Source: Thioalkalivibrio sulfidiphilus (GTDB lineage Bacteria > Pseudomonadota > Gammaproteobacteria > Ectothiorhodospirales > Ectothiorhodospiraceae). From it: a stretch of DNA of 64,000 nucleotides. How positions within the stretch are numbered: position 1 is the stretch's first letter; each line of letters begins with the position of its first letter. Both the position numbers and the translations under genes were made by a program. This document shows, one piece after another, positions 53,338 through 63,480 of this stretch. The notes below the pieces were generated by a model. The model saw only the letters and a list, made by a program, of their open reading frames with translations, did no database searches and was not told the DNA's origin. The stretch lies in the NCBI RefSeq assembly GCF_000377945.1, contig NZ_KB898930.1, positions 1 through 64,000 on the forward strand, read 5' to 3'.

Positions 53338-55164
53338 ATGTGCGGAATTGTCGGAGCCATCGCTGAACGCAACGTGGTCCCCATCCTGATGGAGGGCCTG
53401 CGACGACTGGAGTATCGCGGCTACGACTCCGCCGGCATCGCCGTGCGCGCGGACGATGGCCACATCCAGCGCATCCGCTCCGTGGGCAAGGTGGGTGAAC
53501 TGCAGCACCGGCTGGACGCACAGCCCCTGGTGGGCCGTCTGGGCATCGCCCACACCCGCTGGGCCACCCACGGCATCCCGGCCGAGCGCAATGCCCATCC
53601 GCACATGAGCGGCGAGCGGGTCGCGGTGGTGCACAACGGCATCATCGAGAACCACGCGGACCTGCGCGCCGAGCTGAGCGCACAAGGCTTCAGCTTCACC
53701 TCCGAGACCGACACCGAGGTGATCGCCCACCTGCTTGCCCATCACCTGGGTGAAGGCGAGGACCTGCTCAGCGCAGTCAGGTCCTCGACCAGCAGAATGG
53801 TCGGCGCCTATGCGCTGGCCGTCGCATGCCCCGACGAGGCCGAGCGGCTGATCGTCGCGCGCCTGGGCAGCCCGCTGGTGATCGGCATCGGCGTGGAGGA
53901 AAACTTCATCGCCTCCGACGTCTTCGCCCTGCTGCCGGTGACCCAGCGGTTCATCTTTCTGGAGGAAGGCGACATCGCAGAGATCCGCAGGGGTTCGGTG
54001 CGGGTGCTGGACGCCCAGGGCCATGAAGTCGAGCGCCCGATACGCATCTCCCAGCTCACGGCCGCCACCGCCGACAAGGGCCCGTACCGGCATTACATGC
54101 TCAAGGAGATCTTCGAGCAGCCCGCCGTGATCGCCGAGACCCTGGAGGGGCGCATCTACAAGGGCAGGTTGCTGGAGGAGAGTTTCGGCCACGAGGCCAA
54201 GCGGCTGCTGGATGCCGCGAAAGGCGTGCACATCATCGCCTGCGGCACCAGCTACCACGCCGGCCTGGTGGCCCGTTACTGGCTGGAAGAGGTGGGCGTG
54301 CCCTGCAGCGTGGAAGTGGCCAGCGAATTCCGCTACCGCCACGTGGTGGTGCCGAAGGACACCCTGTTCGTCACCATCTCCCAGTCCGGTGAGACCGCAG
54401 ACACCCTGGCGGCCCTGCGCGAATCAAAGAAGATGGGATATCTCGGCAGCCTCTCCGTCTGCAACGTGCCCGAGAGTTCGCTAGTGCGCGAATCAGACGT
54501 GGCCGTGATGACCCGCGCCGGCCCCGAGATCGGTGTGGCCTCCACCAAGGCCTTCACCACCCAGCTGGTGGCCCTGCGCCTGCTGGCCCTGGCCCTGGCG
54601 CGACGCCATGGCATGGACCGGGAAAAGGAAAAGACCCTGGTGGAGGAACTGGAGTCCCTGCCCCGCCAGGTGGAAGTGGCCCTGTCCCTGAGCGAGGCCA
54701 TCGAAGAGATGGCCAACGCCTTCGCCGAGAAGACCCATGCCCTGTTCCTGGGCCGTGGCACCTTCTATCCCGTGGCCATGGAGGGAGCGCTGAAGCTCAA
54801 AGAGATCTCCTACATCCACGCCGAGGCCTATCCCGCCGGAGAACTCAAGCACGGCCCCCTGGCCCTGGTGGACGCGGACATGCCCGTGATCTGCGCCCTG
54901 CCCAACGACCCGTTGCTGGAGAAGGTGCTCTCCAACCTCCAGGAGGTCCGCGCCCGCGGTGGTGAGCTGTTCCTGTTCAGCGACGAGCGCATCAGGATCA
55001 ACCTGGACCACTACCACAGCCTGACCCTGGCCGACATCTGCCCCAGCACCGCGCCCATCGTCTACACCATCCCGCTGCAGCTGCTGGCGTACCACACGGC
55101 CGTGCTCAAGGGCACGGATGTCGATCAGCCGAGGAATCTGGCGAAGTCGGTGACGGTGGAGTGA
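53338..55164 (+). CDS. glmS: Glutamine–fructose-6-phosphate aminotransferase
   Basis: GlmS makes glucosamine-6-phosphate, the entry to amino-sugar synthesis. The 608-residue protein has the N-terminal Ntn-type glutaminase with catalytic Cys2 (MCGIVGAI) and two SIS isomerase domains (IIACGTSYHAGLVARYW; LFLGRGTFYPVAMEGALKLKEISYIHAEAYPAGELKHGP), ending [13 protein letters not shown]. Its last ~70 codons (from 54955) are duplicated downstream at 55739–55949. The glmS 3' end is a known landing site for Tn7-like elements. Confidence 0.98.
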   Translation: MCGIVGAIAERNVVPILMEGLRRLEYRGYDSAGIAVRADDGHIQRIRSVGKVGELQHRLDAQPLVGRLGIAHTRWATHGIPAERNAHPHMSGERVAVVHNGIIENHADLRAELSAQGFSFTSETDTEVIAHLLAHHLGEGEDLLSAVRSSTSRMVGAYALAVACPDEAERLIVARLGSPLVIGIGVEENFIASDVFALLPVTQRFIFLEEGDIAEIRRGSVRVLDAQGHEVERPIRISQLTAATADKGPYRHYMLKEIFEQPAVIAETLEGRIYKGRLLEESFGHEAKRLLDAAKGVHIIACGTSYHAGLVARYWLEEVGVPCSVEVASEFRYRHVVVPKDTLFVTISQSGETADTLAALRESKKMGYLGSLSVCNVPESSLVRESDVAVMTRAGPEIGVASTKAFTTQLVALRLLALALARRHGMDREKEKTLVEELESLPRQVEVALSLSEAIEEMANAFAEKTHALFLGRGTFYPVAMEGALKLKEISYIHAEAYPAGELKHGPLALVDADMPVICALPNDPLLEKVLSNLQEVRARGGELFLFSDERIRINLDHYHSLTLADICPSTAPIVYTIPLQLLAYHTAVLKGTDVDQPRNLAKSVTVE

Positions 55165-55231: not shown

Positions 55232-55465
55232 ATGAATAGTGCAACCAAGCGCTCCACCATCTATTTCGACGAGCAGCTCCACGAGGCTCTGCGCCTGAAG
55301 GCTGCGCATACACATCAATCCATCTCCGAAATCGTCAACGACGCGGTGCGAGCGGCGCTGCTCGAGGATCAGGAGGACCTGGCGGCCTTTCAGGAGCGTG
55401 TGGCCGAGCCCACAATGACCTACGAAGAATTGCTCAACGACCTGAAGGCGCATGGCAAGCTATAG
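55232..55465 (+). CDS. Ribbon-helix-helix type antitoxin
   Basis: The 77-residue protein has the N-terminal RHH pattern (KRSTIYFDEQLHEALRLKAAHTHQSISEIVNDAVRAAL, strand then two helices) and an acidic C-terminal toxin-neutralising tail (LLEDQEDLAAFQERVAEPTMTYEELLNDLK). SD AAGAGG lies nine bases upstream. Its end overlaps the toxin gene by 14 bases. It would repress its own promoter through the palindrome at 55182–55197. Confidence 0.85.
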   Translation: MNSATKRSTIYFDEQLHEALRLKAAHTHQSISEIVNDAVRAALLEDQEDLAAFQERVAEPTMTYEELLNDLKAHGKL

Positions 55466-55715
55466 ACTTGCCTTCAGAAAATCCGTTGCCAAGGACCTGC
55501 GGCCGATTCCCAGCCGGGATATCGCCCGGATACTCAAGCGCATCGAGGCACTTGCAGACGATCCACGACCGTCCGATAGCCAGAAGCTTTCGGGCCAGGA
55601 ACGCTACCGGGTGCGCCAGGGCGTGTACCGTATCATTTACGAGATTGTGGATGATGAGCTGATCGTGACGGTCGTGAAAATAGGACACAGGCGAGAAGTG
55701 TACCGAAAGATCTGA
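55452..55715 (+). CDS. relE: RelE/ParE-superfamily toxin
   Basis: The 87-residue basic toxin has the RelE fold pattern: YRLAFRKSVAKDLRPIPSRDIARILKRIEALADDPRP, LSGQERYRVRQGVYRIIYEI and KIGHRREVYRKI, including the C-terminal Arg/Tyr residues used by mRNA interferases. It probably cleaves ribosome-bound mRNA, although ParE-type gyrase action cannot be excluded by eye. The pair is inserted between glmS and a duplicate glmS 3' end. Confidence 0.88.
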   Translation: MASYRLAFRKSVAKDLRPIPSRDIARILKRIEALADDPRPSDSQKLSGQERYRVRQGVYRIIYEIVDDELIVTVVKIGHRREVYRKI

Positions 55716-55949
<234 letters not shown>

Positions 55950-56042: not shown

Positions 56043-56071
56043 TTAAGAGGCGATGTCATGTAACATATGCT
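56043..56071 (+). promoter_or_regulatory. Weak candidate promoter of the defence operon
   Basis: TTAAGA (56043–56048) and TATGCT (56066–56071) are 17 bases apart, each matching 4 of 6 consensus bases. The -10 box lies inside the palindromic operator. Confidence 0.35.
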
Positions 56072-56081
56072 ATGTTACATG
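56057..56081. promoter_or_regulatory. Palindromic operator upstream of the defence operon
   Basis: A perfect 11-bp inverted repeat, CATGTAACATA and TATGTTACATG, is separated by three bases. It lies 28 bases before the first operon gene, which encodes a ribbon-helix-helix-like protein, so autoregulation is likely. Confidence 0.75.
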
Positions 56082-56109
56082 AGTTGCGTAACAAGAGCGG
56101 GTTAAACTC

Positions 56110-56310
56110 ATGCCAGTGGGACACAGCGGACGGATCGTGATCGAGATCGATCCAGAGCTTAAGCAGGAACTCCATGCCACCCTTTCCAAGGAAGGGGTCA
56201 GCCTGAAACAGTGGTTCCTCGATAATGCTGAACAATACTTGCGGGAAAAGTCCCAACTCACACTCCCGCTACCGTTTGGAAATGACCTCAAGGAGGAGGC
56301 CTACTCATGA
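56110..56310 (+). CDS. Small ribbon-helix-helix-like regulator of the defence operon
   Basis: The 66-residue protein reads GRIVIEIDPELKQELHATLSKEGVSLKQWFLDNAEQYL, a short strand followed by two helices as in Arc/MetJ-type RHH repressors. It is the first gene of the operon, starts just after a perfect palindrome and overlaps the next gene by ATGA. Its likely role is repression of the operon. It could instead be a small structural partner of SspB. Confidence 0.6.
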   Translation: MPVGHSGRIVIEIDPELKQELHATLSKEGVSLKQWFLDNAEQYLREKSQLTLPLPFGNDLKEEAYS

Positions 56311-57233
56311 TGCGCTTTAACAGCGAAAAAACGGCATTCGGACGCCACGAGACCTTCCCCCTTCGTTACAGTTGGCTTACCAAGGGCATCCATGCGCTTT
56401 TGGAAGATTCCACCGTATTCCAATCCGATGAAGCCACCGTCACGCTTGGCGTGGGGAAGAACATGGTTTCTGCCATTCGATATTGGATAGAGGCAGCACA
56501 GTTAGCTGAGCGTCGTGATGGTCAGCTAATTCTTACGCAGATAGGGGAGGAACTTTTCAGTCCAGGCCATGGGTACGACCCCTATATGGAAGATGAGGCT
56601 ACCATTTGGCTGATTCATTGGTTGATTGCAACTAATGCCGAGCTCGCCACCGCCTGGTATTGGTTCTTTAATCGATTCCACAAGCCAGAGTTTACATCTC
56701 AAGAAGTAGGCGCAGCACTCGTGGACTTCGTAAAGAGCGATATCAAAACCCGAGTTGCCGCATCGACAGTGAAACAAGATGCTGCAATCCTACTTCGGAT
56801 GTATACGCAATCTAGCAGAAGTGCTCGCACCCCGCTGGAGGAAGCCCTTGATTCACCACTATCGTTGTTGGGTCTAGTTTCGCACCTGCCAGGTTCCAAG
56901 CGTTATCAGTCACGCCCCGACACGCGTGATGGTCTTCCGGTGGGAGTTTTCGCGTATGCCGTGGCGGATTACCTCCAGTTCACCAAGGCCAAAGAAGTGC
57001 CGATCGAGGAGTTGATGTATGGTCGAGCGGCTTATCCCGCAATCGGCGGCGTCTTCCGCCTAACAGAGGCTGGGCTGATCAGCAAGTTAGAGGAGATGGT
57101 GCGCGTTTTCCCAGGAGCGTATGAGACTCGAGAGACGGCGGGAGTCCATCAATTATATCTTCTCGAGGAGAAGCCGAAGATCTCCTATTTAGACCATCAC
57201 TACAGTGCCCACTACAGCGAGGTGGCCGCATGA
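56307..57233 (+). CDS. sspB: DUF4007 protein, SspB-like
   Basis: The 308-residue protein matches DUF4007 (FGRHETFPLRYSWLTKGIHALLED, VTLGVGKNMVSAIRYWIEAAQLAE, MEDEATIWLIHWLIATN), which includes SspB, the nickase of SspABCD DNA phosphorothioation systems. The N-terminal ~70 residues look like a winged helix. AGGAGG precedes the start and the gene overlaps both neighbours by four bases, so stoichiometric expression with the SspC- and SspD-like proteins is expected. Function is inferred from the family and the sspBCD order. Confidence 0.83.
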   Translation: MMRFNSEKTAFGRHETFPLRYSWLTKGIHALLEDSTVFQSDEATVTLGVGKNMVSAIRYWIEAAQLAERRDGQLILTQIGEELFSPGHGYDPYMEDEATIWLIHWLIATNAELATAWYWFFNRFHKPEFTSQEVGAALVDFVKSDIKTRVAASTVKQDAAILLRMYTQSSRSARTPLEEALDSPLSLLGLVSHLPGSKRYQSRPDTRDGLPVGVFAYAVADYLQFTKAKEVPIEELMYGRAAYPAIGGVFRLTEAGLISKLEEMVRVFPGAYETRETAGVHQLYLLEEKPKISYLDHHYSAHYSEVAA

Positions 57234-60200
57234 GCCTTGCCAATAAGGTCGCTGTTAATGCGTATTACACCCGTTCCATCAACTTAGAGCGTGATGCGAA
57301 CTCCACTGCAGTCGTCGGAGCGTATATCCCGACTTCGCGAGCCATTAAGACACTGGATCGTATCGCGGATTCCTTTGAGACAGCTCAAGCACCGCGTGCT
57401 TGGTCCCTGGTGGGCCCCTATGGTTCCGGCAAATCATCATTCGCGATTTTCCTCGCGCACCTGCTGGCGCGGGCTGATCAAGATGCTACAAAGTCAGCAG
57501 CAATGGTGTTGCGAAAAGCCAACGCCAAATTGGCTAAGCGTTTTGAGAGCTTCGGGAAAGACAGCCTTGGGCATTGCTATGTCCTGTTGACAGGCAGCCC
57601 TGAGCCACTGAGTAGCCGGCTGGCAAATGCGCTCGCTGAGTCAGCCGCATCTTACTGGTCAAACCGACCAGGCCGGGCCCCGAAAGTGGTTAAGGATCTA
57701 GCTGCTCTCGCTGCCAAGGCAGGAATTACGACTACGGACATTCTGGAAGGTGTTGAAGCACTTCAGGATGCCGTCGCCAAGGTTGGTGGTAATGGTGTAC
57801 TCATCGTCATCGATGAACTTGGAAAGTTTCTTGAGTATGAAGCAAGGCACTACGGAGCTAATGACATCTTCTTGCTGCAGGCTCTCGCGGAGCATGCCTG
57901 TGCTGGACACAAGGCCAACCTCACGCTTGTGGTCTTGCAGCATCAGTCTTTCGAGCATTACGCCAAGGGTCTTGGCGAGAACCTTAAGAACGAATGGGCC
58001 AAGGTGCAAGGCCGCTTCGAGAATATCCCATTCCTAGAGTCGACAGAGCAAACGCTGCGTGTCGTCGCTGCTGCGTTTACGCATCAGCTGAGCACCACTG
58101 ATCGAGCCGAGATCAAGGCAACTGCAACGAAGTGGTCAAATGATCTTGCAGCAGCCGGTGCGTTGCCGAGCATGTTGGATGAGAAGGCGGCTGCCGAACT
58201 CTTCACCAATTGCTATCCGATCCATCCGATCGCGGCCATCCTGTTACCGATTCTGTGCCAAAAAGTGGCTCAGAATGAGCGAACGCTATTCAGCTATCTC
58301 GGGAGCCAGGAGCCTCATGGCTTCCGTGACAGTCTAATGCGTTTGGAGAAGGTGGGTGATTGGATCTATCCCTGGGAGATCTACGAGTACTTCATTCTCA
58401 ACCAACCGGCGGCTGTATCCGATCACTACACGCATCGCCGTTGGGCTGAAGTGGTTACGGCTGTTGAGCGCCTTGGTGACGCTCCAGATATCGAGGGCCA
58501 GCTCCTTAAGACCATCGGGCTTTTCAACATCGTCGGCCCCCAAGGCGGATTCAAGGCTTCAAAAGTCCTGGTAGATCTTGCCCTTTCAAAGAAAACCGAA
58601 GTAAAGCGCGCCACTCAGGCGCTAATCTCCAAGTCGCTAATTCAATTTAGAACATTTAGCGGCGAATATCGCGTATGGCAAGGAAGTGATTTCGATCTAG
58701 ACGCAGCTGTTGATGAGCAGCGAGCAAAGCTCGGTCGATTCGAACTCGCGGAAGTTCTGAACCGTCGGCACGCATTGCTCCCAATAGTCGCCCGTAAGTA
58801 CACCATTCAGAGCGGGACACTCAGATACTTTGTCCCTGTGTTTGTCGATGCGAAAAGCTATAGAACCATTGCGCGGTGCGAAGATCAACCGCGGATAATC
58901 TTCTACCTGTCAGAGGGGCAGAATGACGAGAGTGTCTTCTGTTCAGATGTCATCAAGAATTTCGATGACTTAGATCTTGTCGTTCTACACAGGAATGCCA
59001 GTCTGCTAAGAGAAGCCGTTGCTGAGAACCTGGCGCTTGAAGCGGTTCAGCGTGAGGCGCAGGAGCTCCATGCGGATCCGGTCGCCCAACGGGAATTCAA
59101 AGATCGCTATGCTGCCGCCCAACTTGTTGAGCAACAGCTACTCAGCGCGTTGACTGAGCGACCAGCTCATAACCAATGGTACTGGCGAGGCGATCTCCTC
59201 ACTGTCACCACCAAGCGCCAATTCCAAGAAGCGCTCTCGTATATATTGCGTAGCGTCTTTCATAGCGCCCCTGCAGTTCGGAATGAGCTCATCAATCGAG
59301 ACAAGCTTTCCAGCCAAGCCGCCGCCGCAAGGAACAAACTGTTTGCGGCGATGATCGAGGCGGGTGACAAGGCAGATCTGGGAATCGAGAAGTTTCCACC
59401 TGAGAAGGCCATCTATCGTTCTCTATTGCGCGAGACCCGTTTGCATCAGATGACTGAACCGGGCGTTTGGTCATTTAGTGCGCCTACAAAGCGTTCACCC
59501 TTCTACCAGTCATGGAAGGCTATTGAAGAGTTCATGGCAACGACCGAGCGTGAGTCGCGTAGCTTCCAGGAATTGTTTGATGTGCTAGCCGGACCACCCT
59601 ATGGAATCAAGTCGGGTGTATTGCCGATTCTTGCGCTAGCGGCCAGCCTGGTATTCAAGGACGAGCTCGCAATTTATGAAAACCGAGCGTATGTTCCGTT
59701 CCTGTCACCAGAACACCTGGAGCGGTTGACCAAAACCCCTGACGCATTTCAGGTCCAGCGCTTCAGGATTGAAGGCGTACGTGCATCGCTGTTTGAGCAG
59801 TATTCCAGGGCTCTATTCAATGATGGCAGCCGCAAAACTGTCATCGAGATTGTACGTCCTCTTGCCAATTTCATTGGTGGATTGCCTGAATATGCGAAGA
59901 AGACCAAGAGTCAGACAATATCCGAAGATGCTAAAGCAGTGAGAACGGCATTCAATTTGGCGAAATCGCCGGAGCGCCTGCTTTTCAACGATCTGCCTGC
60001 AGCGCTAGGTTTTGATGTCAGCGCACTAGATACAAGCAAGAGTTTCGATCCAGAAGAATTTGCAGCGCGACTGCGAGACGCGCTGCGAGAACTCAAGAAT
60101 GCCTTCCCAAAACTTCTGCAGGCGCAGCAACGTCTGCTAGCGCAGGCGTTCCAACTCGACGCATCTACACCACTATCGGAGCTTCGAGTTAAATTGGCTG

Positions 60201-60730
60201 GGCGCTATGCAGGTCTGGAGGAGCTCACGGTCGACGTCGATGGACTAAGGGCCTTCCTCAAGCGCCTAACTAAGACTAGCGGCACGGACGAAGAGTGGCT
60301 GCAAAACCTCCTGATGTTTCTTGGCCAAAAGCCTCCTGAGAAGTGGGCCGACGCGGACACGAGCGAGGCGGAAGTTCGCTTGAGTGACTTTGCTTCCCGT
60401 ATTCTTGACCTAGAAACATTACGTCTACACTACGACAAGACAAGGAAGAAGGTTTCTGGTGATTTCGATGTTTACCTGCTGAAATCCCTCAAGCGAGGGG
60501 GTGAGGCTATTGAGGAGGTGGTCGCCGTTGACGCCAAACGTCATGAGGCTGTCCAGGTCGTCAAACGAGACCTTTTGGCATCTATTAGCCAGTATGCGGA
60601 TCACGAACTTCAGCTTGCCGCAGTCGCTGAATTCGTAGATGAGTTTCTTGCGGAATACAGACAGCAGCAGTCCTCAGAGCACAGAGCCACAAGCCGAGAC
60701 AAAAAGCTAAAGGACGCGCGAAATGAGTGA
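57230..60730 (+). CDS. sspC: Large P-loop ATPase, SspC-like
   Basis: The 1166-residue protein carries a Walker A GPYGSGKS (62–69) and a Walker B LIVIDE (191–196), followed by a long helical part with no other motif I recognise (about 700–1160 mostly alpha). The position directly between the DUF4007 and PAPS-reductase genes and the size match the SspC ATPase of phosphorothioation systems, where ATP hydrolysis is needed for modification. Large ATPases of BREX (BrxC/PglY) share this architecture, so the family assignment depends on context. It overlaps sspB by four and sspD by eight bases. Confidence 0.78.
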   Translation: MSLANKVAVNAYYTRSINLERDANSTAVVGAYIPTSRAIKTLDRIADSFETAQAPRAWSLVGPYGSGKSSFAIFLAHLLARADQDATKSAAMVLRKANAKLAKRFESFGKDSLGHCYVLLTGSPEPLSSRLANALAESAASYWSNRPGRAPKVVKDLAALAAKAGITTTDILEGVEALQDAVAKVGGNGVLIVIDELGKFLEYEARHYGANDIFLLQALAEHACAGHKANLTLVVLQHQSFEHYAKGLGENLKNEWAKVQGRFENIPFLESTEQTLRVVAAAFTHQLSTTDRAEIKATATKWSNDLAAAGALPSMLDEKAAAELFTNCYPIHPIAAILLPILCQKVAQNERTLFSYLGSQEPHGFRDSLMRLEKVGDWIYPWEIYEYFILNQPAAVSDHYTHRRWAEVVTAVERLGDAPDIEGQLLKTIGLFNIVGPQGGFKASKVLVDLALSKKTEVKRATQALISKSLIQFRTFSGEYRVWQGSDFDLDAAVDEQRAKLGRFELAEVLNRRHALLPIVARKYTIQSGTLRYFVPVFVDAKSYRTIARCEDQPRIIFYLSEGQNDESVFCSDVIKNFDDLDLVVLHRNASLLREAVAENLALEAVQREAQELHADPVAQREFKDRYAAAQLVEQQLLSALTERPAHNQWYWRGDLLTVTTKRQFQEALSYILRSVFHSAPAVRNELINRDKLSSQAAAARNKLFAAMIEAGDKADLGIEKFPPEKAIYRSLLRETRLHQMTEPGVWSFSAPTKRSPFYQSWKAIEEFMATTERESRSFQELFDVLAGPPYGIKSGVLPILALAASLVFKDELAIYENRAYVPFLSPEHLERLTKTPDAFQVQRFRIEGVRASLFEQYSRALFNDGSRKTVIEIVRPLANFIGGLPEYAKKTKSQTISEDAKAVRTAFNLAKSPERLLFNDLPAALGFDVSALDTSKSFDPEEFAARLRDALRELKNAFPKLLQAQQRLLAQAFQLDASTPLSELRVKLAGRYAGLEELTVDVDGLRAFLKRLTKTSGTDEEWLQNLLMFLGQKPPEKWADADTSEAEVRLSDFASRILDLETLRLHYDKTRKKVSGDFDVYLLKSLKRGGEAIEEVVAVDAKRHEAVQVVKRDLLASISQYADHELQLAAVAEFVDEFLAEYRQQQSSEHRATSRDKKLKDARNE

Positions 60731-61547
60731 GCGTAAGTACAATATCCAAGATGCCCTTAAGCGCACCGATGCCCGGCACGTTTTAGGGTTATCCGGTGGA
60801 AAAGACAGTGCCGCCTTGGCGGTTTACATCAAGGATCGCTATCCAGAACTACATGATCGAATGGAGTACTTCTTTTCCGACACAGGCGCTGAGCTTCAAG
60901 AGGTCTACGACGTTCTTGAAAAGCTCGAAGCTTACCTCGGAAAAGAGATAATTCGGCTCAGTAGCGGAAGGCCATTTGAGCATTGGTTAAAGGTCCATAA
61001 CGACTTCTTGCCTTCACCAAGACAGCGCTGGTGTACTCGCGTCATGAAGATTGAGCCCTTCGAGCGCTGGATTGGAACGGATGATGCCATTAGCTACATT
61101 GGTATTAGGGCTGACGAGTTCAGAGAGGGGTATATAAGCCACAAAGATAATATCAAAGCCGTGTACCCCTTCATTGAGGACGGGCTGGTACGGGACGATA
61201 TTTTTCAAATTCTAGAAGATTCTGTAGGTATTCCCGAATACTATAAATGGCGCAGTAGATCCGGATGCTATTTCTGCTTTTTTCAACGACAAGAAGAGTG
61301 GCTGGGGTTAAAAGAAGAACATCCTACCCTATTTGATATGGCAGTGAGCATAGAAAAAGAGGCTGGTAACGGGTACACCTGGGTTCAGGGACGAACGCTT
61401 GAGGAAGTCGCACAACACGCAATGAACAAGCGCAAGATGTTGGGGCCAAGAGCGACCAAAACGGCGGTACGCTGGCAGGACTCATTGCGTAGTGGTGAAG
61501 AAGATGATGACCCTGAAGACCAGTCCTGCTTGATATGTAGTTTGTAG
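60723..61547 (+). CDS. sspD: PAPS-reductase/DndC-like ATP pyrophosphatase, SspD-like
   Basis: The 274-residue enzyme has the PP-loop LSGGKDSAA (23–31), SDTGAELQEVYD, RWCTRVMKIEPF (Cys104) and SGCYFCFFQRQEEW (Cys182, Cys185). A further pair lies at the very end, SCLICSL (Cys269, Cys272). DndC and SspD activate the DNA backbone with ATP for sulfur insertion and carry an Fe–S cluster; the five cysteines here fit such a cluster. The sulfur donor (SspA/DndA cysteine desulfurase) is not in the window, so a housekeeping IscS may supply it. Confidence 0.85.
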   Translation: MSERKYNIQDALKRTDARHVLGLSGGKDSAALAVYIKDRYPELHDRMEYFFSDTGAELQEVYDVLEKLEAYLGKEIIRLSSGRPFEHWLKVHNDFLPSPRQRWCTRVMKIEPFERWIGTDDAISYIGIRADEFREGYISHKDNIKAVYPFIEDGLVRDDIFQILEDSVGIPEYYKWRSRSGCYFCFFQRQEEWLGLKEEHPTLFDMAVSIEKEAGNGYTWVQGRTLEEVAQHAMNKRKMLGPRATKTAVRWQDSLRSGEEDDDPEDQSCLICSL

Positions 61548-61561
61548 GTCTTGCTAATGCC

Positions 61562-61858
61562 GTGATAGAGATCAACAAATTTATGGATAAGAATCAGCTT
61601 AAAATCGATATCGAGCCGAAGAGAATAATAATTACATCTGAGCCATACGTTATGTATACAAAGCGCGGCTACCAAGCAGTGGTAGATGTCATAGAGAGCA
61701 GAAGTAAGCGAGACTATTTTATATATATATCCGCGCGTTCTTTGTCAGATCGATTAGAAGAGCTTAGGTTGATGAATAATAATAAACTGCATGGGCTTGA
61801 GATTTGGGTAAGAAAGGAGTCGGCTGAAAAAATGGCGGGATATATTGTAGAAGAGTAG
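61562..61858 (+). CDS. Small protein of unknown function in the defence operon
   Basis: A 98-residue protein rich in Lys, Ile and Glu (KIDIEPKRIIITSEPYVMYTKRGYQAVVDVI, then RDYFIYISARSLSDRLEELR) with alternating strands and helices. I do not recognise it. The start is GTG 61562 or ATG 61583. It lies 14 bases after sspD and four bases before the GIY-YIG gene, so it is cotranscribed. It could be a partner of the nuclease. Confidence 0.6.
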   Translation: MIEINKFMDKNQLKIDIEPKRIIITSEPYVMYTKRGYQAVVDVIESRSKRDYFIYISARSLSDRLEELRLMNNNKLHGLEIWVRKESAEKMAGYIVEE

Positions 61859-61862
61859 CAAT

Positions 61863-62195
61863 ATGTCTTGCGACCCTAGAAACGCCTCTCGGCCATTTAG
61901 ATTAAGTGAAATAGAAAGGCCTGAGTACCACGGCTATGGTATCTATGGTTTTTGGTATCGAGGGCGTTGCATATATATAGGGAAAGCGGAAGATCAGGTT
62001 CTGACAGAAAGATTAAAACAGCATTGGGCGAATTGTCATAATGATCTTCTAAAGCAATGGCTCGCCGCTAAACCAGGCGAAATCCGGTTCGTGGTAAAAA
62101 TGATCGACCACAAAGAACAGATACAAGTATACGAAAAGTTTTATATCAGAAGATTTCAGCCGATAACAAATAAAATAAGGTATCAAAGTAAATAG
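61863..62195 (+). CDS. Stand-alone GIY-YIG nuclease domain protein
   Basis: The 110-residue protein is a nearly bare GIY-YIG domain: GIY (26–28), YIG (38–40), Arg50 and His54 in TERLKQHW, Glu91 in VYEKFYIRRF and Asn103 in QPITNK, all expected catalytic or structural residues. GIY-YIG enzymes cut DNA phosphodiesters. Placed inside a phosphorothioation operon that lacks SspE and DndFGH, it is the only visible nuclease and could be the restriction effector. It is AT-rich relative to the core genome. Confidence 0.85.
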   Translation: MSCDPRNASRPFRLSEIERPEYHGYGIYGFWYRGRCIYIGKAEDQVLTERLKQHWANCHNDLLKQWLAAKPGEIRFVVKMIDHKEQIQVYEKFYIRRFQPITNKIRYQSK

Positions 62196-62226: not shown

Positions 62227-63480
62227 ATGGCAACCGCAATACCTGCTATGAAAGGGAAGTTTGGTACGACAGAGTATTATTTAGTGACTATGCGTGCGAA
62301 AGAGCTTGCTGATCGTCTAATCATACCTAAGGAATTGGAAGATTGGGATGATATGTCGATTGAAGAGAGATTTCAGCGCGAAGTAAATTATGGGCGTGTT
62401 AAAAAGCACATAGCGCCATATCTTGCGCACGATGAGGATCGATTCTTTGGCGCGTTTATTGTTGATATTTACAATGGAGATAATGTCGAATTCGAGCCCA
62501 TTGATAACATAATAAGCAAATTGCCAGCGCTATATCAGCGAGCAGGTAGTGCTTTCGGATTTCTCTACTTTCAAGGTGATGAGGTATTAGTTCCCTTAGA
62601 TGGGCAACATAGACTTGCCGCGATTAAGTTCGCGATATCAGGAAAAGATGAGAAAGGAAAGGATATACCCGGTCTTAGTCCTAATATGGAGGTTGCAAGT
62701 GATCTTTGCACGGTGATCTTGCTCAAGCATGATCCAAGGAAGGCAAGAAAGATATTCAATAAAGTGAATAGGTATGCTAAGGCGACTTCAAAATCTGACA
62801 ATCTTATCACGGCTGATGATGATATCGTTGCGATAATAACGCGTGAGGAAGTGGCGGATAAAGTCATTCATGAGCGGCTTGTAAACTATGACTCTAATAC
62901 ACTCAATGCCTCATCCCCTTACTTTACTACCCTTTCCACTTTGTATGAGGCGACTGGTCTTATCCTTGAGGACACCTTTGGAAAGGTTGACAGAACGACA
63001 CTTCCTTCTCCCGCGGATCAGAATTTATACAGACAGGTTGTTCGTGAGCACTGGGAAACGCTGTGTCAAAAAGTAAGTCTGTTCGAGAATGCACTTCATG
63101 ATCCATCTGAGAATGGTGATGACAAGCGCAGAGAAATTCGGCGAGATTTTGTACTTGGCAAGCCGATAGCACAACTCGCTCTAGTGGACGCTGTGCTTAG
63201 ACTAAGGAGTGAGGAAAACGATGGCTCGCGTCTATCTTGGAATGAAGTAACAGAAAGAATAAACCTGGTAGATTGGAGATCAGATGCACCTTTATGGCAA
63301 GGTGTTTTGATGTCCGGTGATAAAGTGGTAACAGGTAAGCAGTCAGCTAAATTTGCTGCAAGATTTATCGCGTATTATCTAGGTCAGAAGACATTTCCTA
63401 AAGAGTTAGAGGTATTGCGCGATCAATACCGTGGTCATCCAGGTAATGAAGGAAAAGATTTACCTAAGCCCATAGCATGA
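62227..63480 (+). CDS. dndB: DGQHR-domain protein, DndB-like
   Basis: The 417-residue protein has the DGQHR motif (125–129, in VLVPLDGQHRLAAIKFA) of the DndB/DGQHR family, with KIFNKVNRYAKATSKSDNLITADDDIVAIITREEVA following. DndB represses dnd transcription and can tune modification; SspE also has a DGQR-type sensing motif, but SspE's HNH nuclease domain is absent. The gene starts 31 bases after the GIY-YIG gene behind AAGGAG and is the last recognisable gene. Codon use is AT-rich, unlike the core genes. The symbol is provisional. Confidence 0.78.
   Translation: MATAIPAMKGKFGTTEYYLVTMRAKELADRLIIPKELEDWDDMSIEERFQREVNYGRVKKHIAPYLAHDEDRFFGAFIVDIYNGDNVEFEPIDNIISKLPALYQRAGSAFGFLYFQGDEVLVPLDGQHRLAAIKFAISGKDEKGKDIPGLSPNMEVASDLCTVILLKHDPRKARKIFNKVNRYAKATSKSDNLITADDDIVAIITREEVADKVIHERLVNYDSNTLNASSPYFTTLSTLYEATGLILEDTFGKVDRTTLPSPADQNLYRQVVREHWETLCQKVSLFENALHDPSENGDDKRREIRRDFVLGKPIAQLALVDAVLRLRSEENDGSRLSWNEVTERINLVDWRSDAPLWQGVLMSGDKVVTGKQSAKFAARFIAYYLGQKTFPKELEVLRDQYRGHPGNEGKDLPKPIA

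Follow-up and report, generated by a model that had tools for sequence, protein, structure and literature searches.

The ssp operon of Thioalkalivibrio sulfidiphilus described here ends in a gene for a DGQHR-motif protein. This raises the question of whether the protein senses phosphorothioate (PT) marks together with a neighbouring nuclease, restrains that nuclease, or regulates the operon in which it lies. The first-pass annotation had left it between a modification sensor working in trans with the adjacent GIY-YIG protein and a repressor of the operon. We therefore considered the locus, the relatives of the protein, its predicted fold and the genes that accompany it elsewhere. Throughout, the window means the whole stretch of DNA analysed, 64,000 nucleotides in length.

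Organization of the ssp locus

The Ssp context proposed for the gene was confirmed by PADLOC matches to SspB, SspC and SspD in the same operon, all on the forward strand. The operon contains sspB (56307..57233; DUF4007, PF13182 E = 3.9e-79, PADLOC SspB E = 7.8e-92), sspC (57230..60730), which encodes a BrxC-like AAA+ ATPase scoring 1449.5 bits with the PADLOC SspC model, and sspD (60723..61547), whose PAPS-reductase-like product matches PADLOC SspD with E = 8.8e-103. A 98-aa ORF (61562..61858, forward strand) follows, with gaps of 14 bp to sspD and 4 bp to the gene of a GIY-YIG nuclease; neither a family match nor a homologue in the related loci was found for it. The GIY-YIG gene (61863..62195, 110 aa) and the DGQHR gene (62227..63480, 417 aa from an ATG start) complete the series on the same strand, and no other recognised PT effector is present at this locus.

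In front of the operon lies an inverted repeat, which had been placed at 56057–56081. The palindrome is real and spans 56056..56082, with perfect 12-bp arms (56056-56067 and 56071-56082) around a 3-nt spacer; in shuffled versions of the window, chance would give no such match, and it is a likely operator. Just past it, a 66-aa ORF that was missing from the first ORF list (56110..56310, forward strand) heads the operon and overlaps the start of sspB. Its product is ribbon-helix-helix (RHH)-like, with weak ParD/HicB similarity (Pfam ParD, 15.4 bits, E = 0.026, below the cut-off). The region downstream of glmS is a common integration site, and the ssp island appears to be inserted there. As a separate observation on this flank, a 207-nt duplication (94%) of the glmS 3′ end occupies 54954-55160 and 55739-55945, and the two copies flank a ParE-like toxin gene (55452-55715).

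The DGQHR protein and its motif

Translation of the ORF bore out a 417-aa protein with the DGQHR motif at residues 125-129 (D125 to R129; 62599..62613, forward strand). By profile it is a member of the DndB family, matching PF14072 over residues 5-386 with E = 3e-40 and 138.8 bits (gathering score 29.1), and it also matches TIGR03187 (DGQHR) with E = 2.8e-30. In the alignment of relatives, all 77 homologues have the DGQHR motif and Gln50 unchanged, so the motif is not a chance string. Gln50 belongs to the Q50-R51 codons (62374..62379, forward strand), whose aligned counterpart in DUF262 proteins is the YQR motif. The C-terminal part is without an HNH signature, as had been noticed: no HNH or DUF1524 profile matches the protein, GmrSD_N matches only below threshold, and the C-terminal half of the AlphaFold2 model is helical.

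A conserved pair with a GIY-YIG nuclease

The product of the gene upstream matches PF01541 (E = 2.4e-6) and retains residues Y28, Y38, R50, E91 and N103, which make up an intact catalytic set. Across 64 GIY-YIG sequences, the GIY, YIG and Arg positions are kept in every one, Glu in 62 and Asn in 46. The AlphaFold2 model of this protein (pLDDT 91.2) matches UvrC GIY-YIG domains (Foldseek E = 1.1e-4). On its motifs, its catalytic Arg and Glu and its predicted UvrC-type fold, the partner classifies as a putative GIY-YIG nuclease.

The two genes belong together well beyond this genome. In the first genome search, the genes of the two best relatives (G092 and G016) were each immediately preceded by a short GIY-YIG-like ORF, and the same was true of three plasmid loci whose annotation gives no more than 'hypothetical protein + DndB/DGQHR protein'. 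Single-sequence scans of genome contigs and viral contigs returned zero relatives; a profile scan succeeded. It covered one genome per species, used an alignment of six GIY-linked DGQHR proteins as query and gave 80 loci, which represent a chosen subfamily because all six query proteins were GIY-linked, although the presence of the neighbour is not thereby forced. In 65 of these 80 loci the DGQHR gene is immediately preceded by a GIY-YIG ORF in the same orientation, the two genes usually overlapping or nearly touching; three further loci have a GIY-YIG remnant (L053, L066) or an intact copy displaced by one gene (L070). Beside canonical dndB, a GIY-YIG gene was found at none of the 10 genes in the same set. 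The organisms with these loci include Spirochaetota, Deinococcota, Actinomycetota, Chloroflexota, Bacteroidota, Bacillota, Pseudomonadota and one archaeon. The partners also diverge together: the mirror-distance rho between GIY-YIG and DGQHR proteins is 0.80 (n = 65 loci), with a maximum of 0.145 among shuffles, and within the 30 Ssp loci it reaches 0.85, compared with 0.46 for SspD and the DGQHR protein. One Clostridial subclade of nine loci (L024-L032) keeps the DGQHR protein but lacks the GIY-YIG gene.

Several other arrangements were seen in these loci. Some members of the Clostridial subclade lie near CxC-ATPase/PLD-helicase genes. A large GHKL-type ATPase (797-817 aa) is encoded directly upstream of the GIY-YIG gene in L035 (5013-7466) and L069 (5047-7440), and similar genes occur in L033, L062, L073 and the viral contig L096. 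Three viral contigs of 45-200 kb (L097-L099) encode distant DGQHR-motif proteins, whose genes have neighbours encoding about 650 and 710 aa, in an order that is conserved. Apparent GIY-DGQHR fusions in L018 and L037 were rejected as artefacts of ORF calling. In L023 (7314-9083), a DUF262 N-terminal part is joined to a DGQHR protein without its first 68 positions; this looks like an in-frame deletion or an assembly chimera of a DUF262/GIY/DGQHR cluster.

The pair accompanies three kinds of PT system

Fifty-nine of 70 GIY-DGQHR pairs lie near a PT module, whether Ssp, Dnd or type-4 BREX. By context, 30 are with Ssp, 12 with Dnd, 9 with type-4 BREX and 8 with mixed or partial PT modules; for the remaining 11, none was detected within the stretch read. 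The type-4 BREX genes at pair loci were verified by the PADLOC BrxC, PglZ, BrxL and BrxP models. On the tree of DGQHR proteins, the type of PT system switches at least 8 times. Because of these switches and the co-divergence of the two proteins (rho 0.80-0.85), the pair appears, as judged from sequence comparison, to move as one cassette between modification systems.

Predicted structure and likeness to SspE and DndI

The AlphaFold2 model of the DGQHR protein is of high quality (pLDDT 93.8). As a whole, it gave no Foldseek match with E below 0.001. When the same matches were re-aligned, ParB/Srx proteins came out on top: ParB-CTP/CDP structures led with Z from 7.6 to 7.0, followed by PadC, Noc, SspE (5.1) and sulfiredoxin, and unrelated chains reached at most 4.2. 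A Z under 8 is modest and that of SspE is middling; nevertheless, the leading rows all belong to one superfamily. The protein is thus predicted to consist of a ParB/sulfiredoxin NTPase-type domain (about residues 8-187) and a helical C-terminus. A sequence search of solved structures returned no relatives of either the DGQHR protein or the GIY-YIG protein.

In SspE, the PT pocket is formed by Tyr30-Gln31 and the NTPase Arg lies within DGQQR (PMC9646914; see also PMC13251355 and, for DndI, PMC11662687). The structural comparison with SspE that the first-pass annotation had called for turned out partly in its favour, with a predicted ParB/Srx fold and SspE among the matches (Z 5.1). At the Tyr30-Gln31 columns, Gln is present in 77 of 77 proteins, and Tyr is replaced by Phe49 in the window and mostly by Ile or Leu elsewhere, in an alignment that is itself weak (hhalign probability 25 for the profile alignment of the DGQHR family with DUF262 proteins). 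If these proteins have a PT pocket, the replacements of Tyr mean that it would not be the same as that of SspE.

Taken together, the pair shares with SspE and DndI, which combine a DUF262 ParB-like NTPase with a DUF1524 HNH domain, the predicted ParB/Srx domain, the DGQ(Q/H)R motif, a preceding QR motif, linkage to PT-modification genes and the coupling of a sensor/NTPase to a nuclease, predicted here from sequence. It differs in being two genes, in having GIY-YIG instead of HNH, in drawing its sensor from the DndB family rather than DUF262, and in that the PT-pocket Tyr is not conserved.

A probable two-gene restriction effector

These results suggest that the DGQHR and GIY-YIG proteins probably form a two-gene restriction effector plugged into PT systems. 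The DGQHR protein would be the regulatory subunit of a two-chain effector. Its ParB/sulfiredoxin domain (about residues 8-187) would bind and probably hydrolyse nucleotide via the DGQHR motif, the protein would respond to the PT marks that SspBCD puts on DNA, and the partner would likely dock on its helical C-terminal half. As the nuclease, the GIY-YIG protein would damage DNA without the host mark, so that two chains would share the work of the single chain of SspE and DndI (a DUF262 NTPase/sensor plus an HNH nuclease). That the two proteins bind each other, hydrolyse NTP, sense PT, cleave DNA and defend against phages is inferred, with SspE and DndI as the models for the mechanism. Several findings count against this reading: the PT-pocket Tyr of SspE is not kept, 19 of 19 sampled proteobacterial Ssp loci have no such pair, the Clostridial subclade does without the nuclease gene, 11 pairs came without a PT module in the stretch read, the alignment with DUF262 proteins is weak and the Z for SspE is middling. 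The earlier suggestion of a sensor in trans with the GIY-YIG protein gained strong genomic support from the adjacency in 65 of 80 loci, the rho values of 0.80-0.85, the occurrence at three kinds of PT locus and the predicted ParB/Srx fold listing SspE, with PT sensing itself a prediction.

Could the DGQHR protein instead be an inhibitor or antitoxin that holds the GIY-YIG nuclease back until infection, without reading PT? A tight, co-diverging two-gene cassette is also the form of toxin-antitoxin pairs, and modification-independent restraint would account for the presence beside three PT systems as well. However, it leaves the specific association with PT loci unexplained, the NTPase-type motif is strictly conserved, and a pure antitoxin would be unexpected in the nuclease-less Clostridial subclade. 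We consider this explanation unlikely.

The DGQHR protein is distinct from DndB

The effector reading assigns the DGQHR protein a role apart from that of DndB, which represses dnd operons; for Salmonella, the DndB box is known (PMC4507180), and Cys29 is needed there for DndB regulation. In a maximum-likelihood tree of 92 proteins, nine canonical DndB rows split off at 100/100, and the window protein falls among the GIY-linked proteins, beside members from Spirochaetia, Truepera and Acidimicrobiia with 55-60% identity. It misses the DndB regulator equivalog TIGR03233 (94.6 bits, cut-off 328). In at least 5 Dnd loci (L012, L038, L044, L058 and L087), a canonical dndB coexists with a DGQHR protein of the window's kind, and because of this separate dndB the window protein is, by sequence criteria, not DndB. 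The two share PF14072, the DGQHR motif, the QR motif and a ParB-like N-domain, whereas the window protein exceeds the 355-position TIGR03233 model by about 60 residues and belongs to a separate clade with a GIY-YIG partner that co-occurs with canonical dndB in the same loci. Distinct signature residues, namely FF at 73-74, G117xE119 and R174, also set it apart. At the DndB Cys29 column the window protein has Met and 0 of 83 clade members have Cys, although this is a weak criterion, with Cys29 in just 4 of 9 canonical DndB rows.

The other role proposed earlier for the protein, repression of the operon, lost ground against this background. It would make the protein a DndB-type repressor acting on the ssp operon at 56056-56082, with the GIY-YIG gene as a separate effector, and it can draw on the common Pfam family, the real palindrome and the repression of dnd operons by DndB (PMC4507180). 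Against it stand the separation from canonical DndB in the tree (100/100), the score of 94.6 against 328, the coexistence with dndB in Dnd loci, the Cys29 position, the absence of the DndB box TACGN10CGTA from the window (a box that may differ between species), and the conserved GIY-YIG partner, which it does not explain. Moreover, the RHH-like ORF adjoins the palindrome; being a small DNA-binding-like protein at the operon head, it is a more economical repressor candidate than the product of the operon's last gene, with its identity resting on a sub-threshold match. Repression by the DGQHR protein is thus improbable.

Position of the putative effector pair in Ssp loci

If the pair is an effector, it should be viewed against what other Ssp loci carry. 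We compared 19 proteobacterial genomes picked solely for having sspD. Beside sspD, these loci often hold an SspE-like DUF262 protein, FGH-like modules, or a trio of DEAD-helicase, GHKL-ATPase and PLD genes, and the GIY-DGQHR pair was found in 0 of the 19. In the window, it sits near the post-sspD slot, 3′ of the 98-aa ORF. Since none of the 19 sampled loci has the pair and the slot there often holds other effectors, only a minority of Ssp loci would have it in this position, which otherwise holds restriction genes. Neither an FGH-like module nor a helicase/GHKL/PLD trio nor a DUF262-HNH protein turned up in the rest of the genome that contains the window; a DndH-like match falls in a frame of 770 aa, about as long as a housekeeping FtsK, and the one DUF262 protein (347 aa), on another contig, has no visible HNH region.

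Like SspFGH and DndFGH, the pair would be a PT-linked restriction module adjoining the modification genes. Those systems, in contrast, are three-gene modules with an FtsK-like translocase, and no sequence relation to the pair was seen. The DEAD-helicase/GHKL-ATPase/PLD trio was observed near sspBCD in 6 of the 19 sampled loci (L121, L123, L124, L127, L130 and L131) and also at L007, L014 and L065. Its assignment as SspFGH was dropped, SspH being described as FtsK-like (PMC8092258); the trio may be another PT effector.

A role of the pair in modification rather than restriction, in which it would nick DNA or limit NTP and so allow PT to be inserted or kept low, has some precedent in the suggestion that DndB limits PT incorporation or is a nuclease giving DNA access (PMC10853773), but is improbable, as SspBCD and a desulfurase modify DNA without the pair in studied strains (PMC8092258) and the sampled Ssp loci with other effectors lack it.

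Implications for orphan sspBCD loci

GIY-YIG nucleases and DndB have each been noted near Dnd genes (PMC10853773); a description of the GIY-DGQHR pair as such was not found in the open-access literature searched. The standalone URI (GIY-YIG) nucleases of Dnd neighbourhoods likewise place a GIY-YIG nuclease near PT genes, but they are described as backups that stand alone at the edge of the locus, in some cases encoded on the other strand (PMC10853773), whereas the gene described here is directly upstream of the DGQHR gene and also occurs in Ssp and type-4 BREX loci.

In a survey of 2,678 sspBCD loci, about 84% were without sspE and sspFGH, and further restriction counterparts were proposed (PMC8092258). 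The GIY-DGQHR cassette is a concrete, testable candidate for some of these missing counterparts. Tentatively, and with less confidence than for the effector role itself, we propose a portable PT-gated GIY-YIG effector with a split ParB-like sensor, which may serve Ssp, Dnd and type-4 BREX systems and be the restriction partner of some orphan sspBCD loci. If this is true, the combination of ParB-like sensor and nuclease seen in SspE and DndI would also exist in a split, two-gene form with another type of nuclease, and a single effector could serve several PT machineries.
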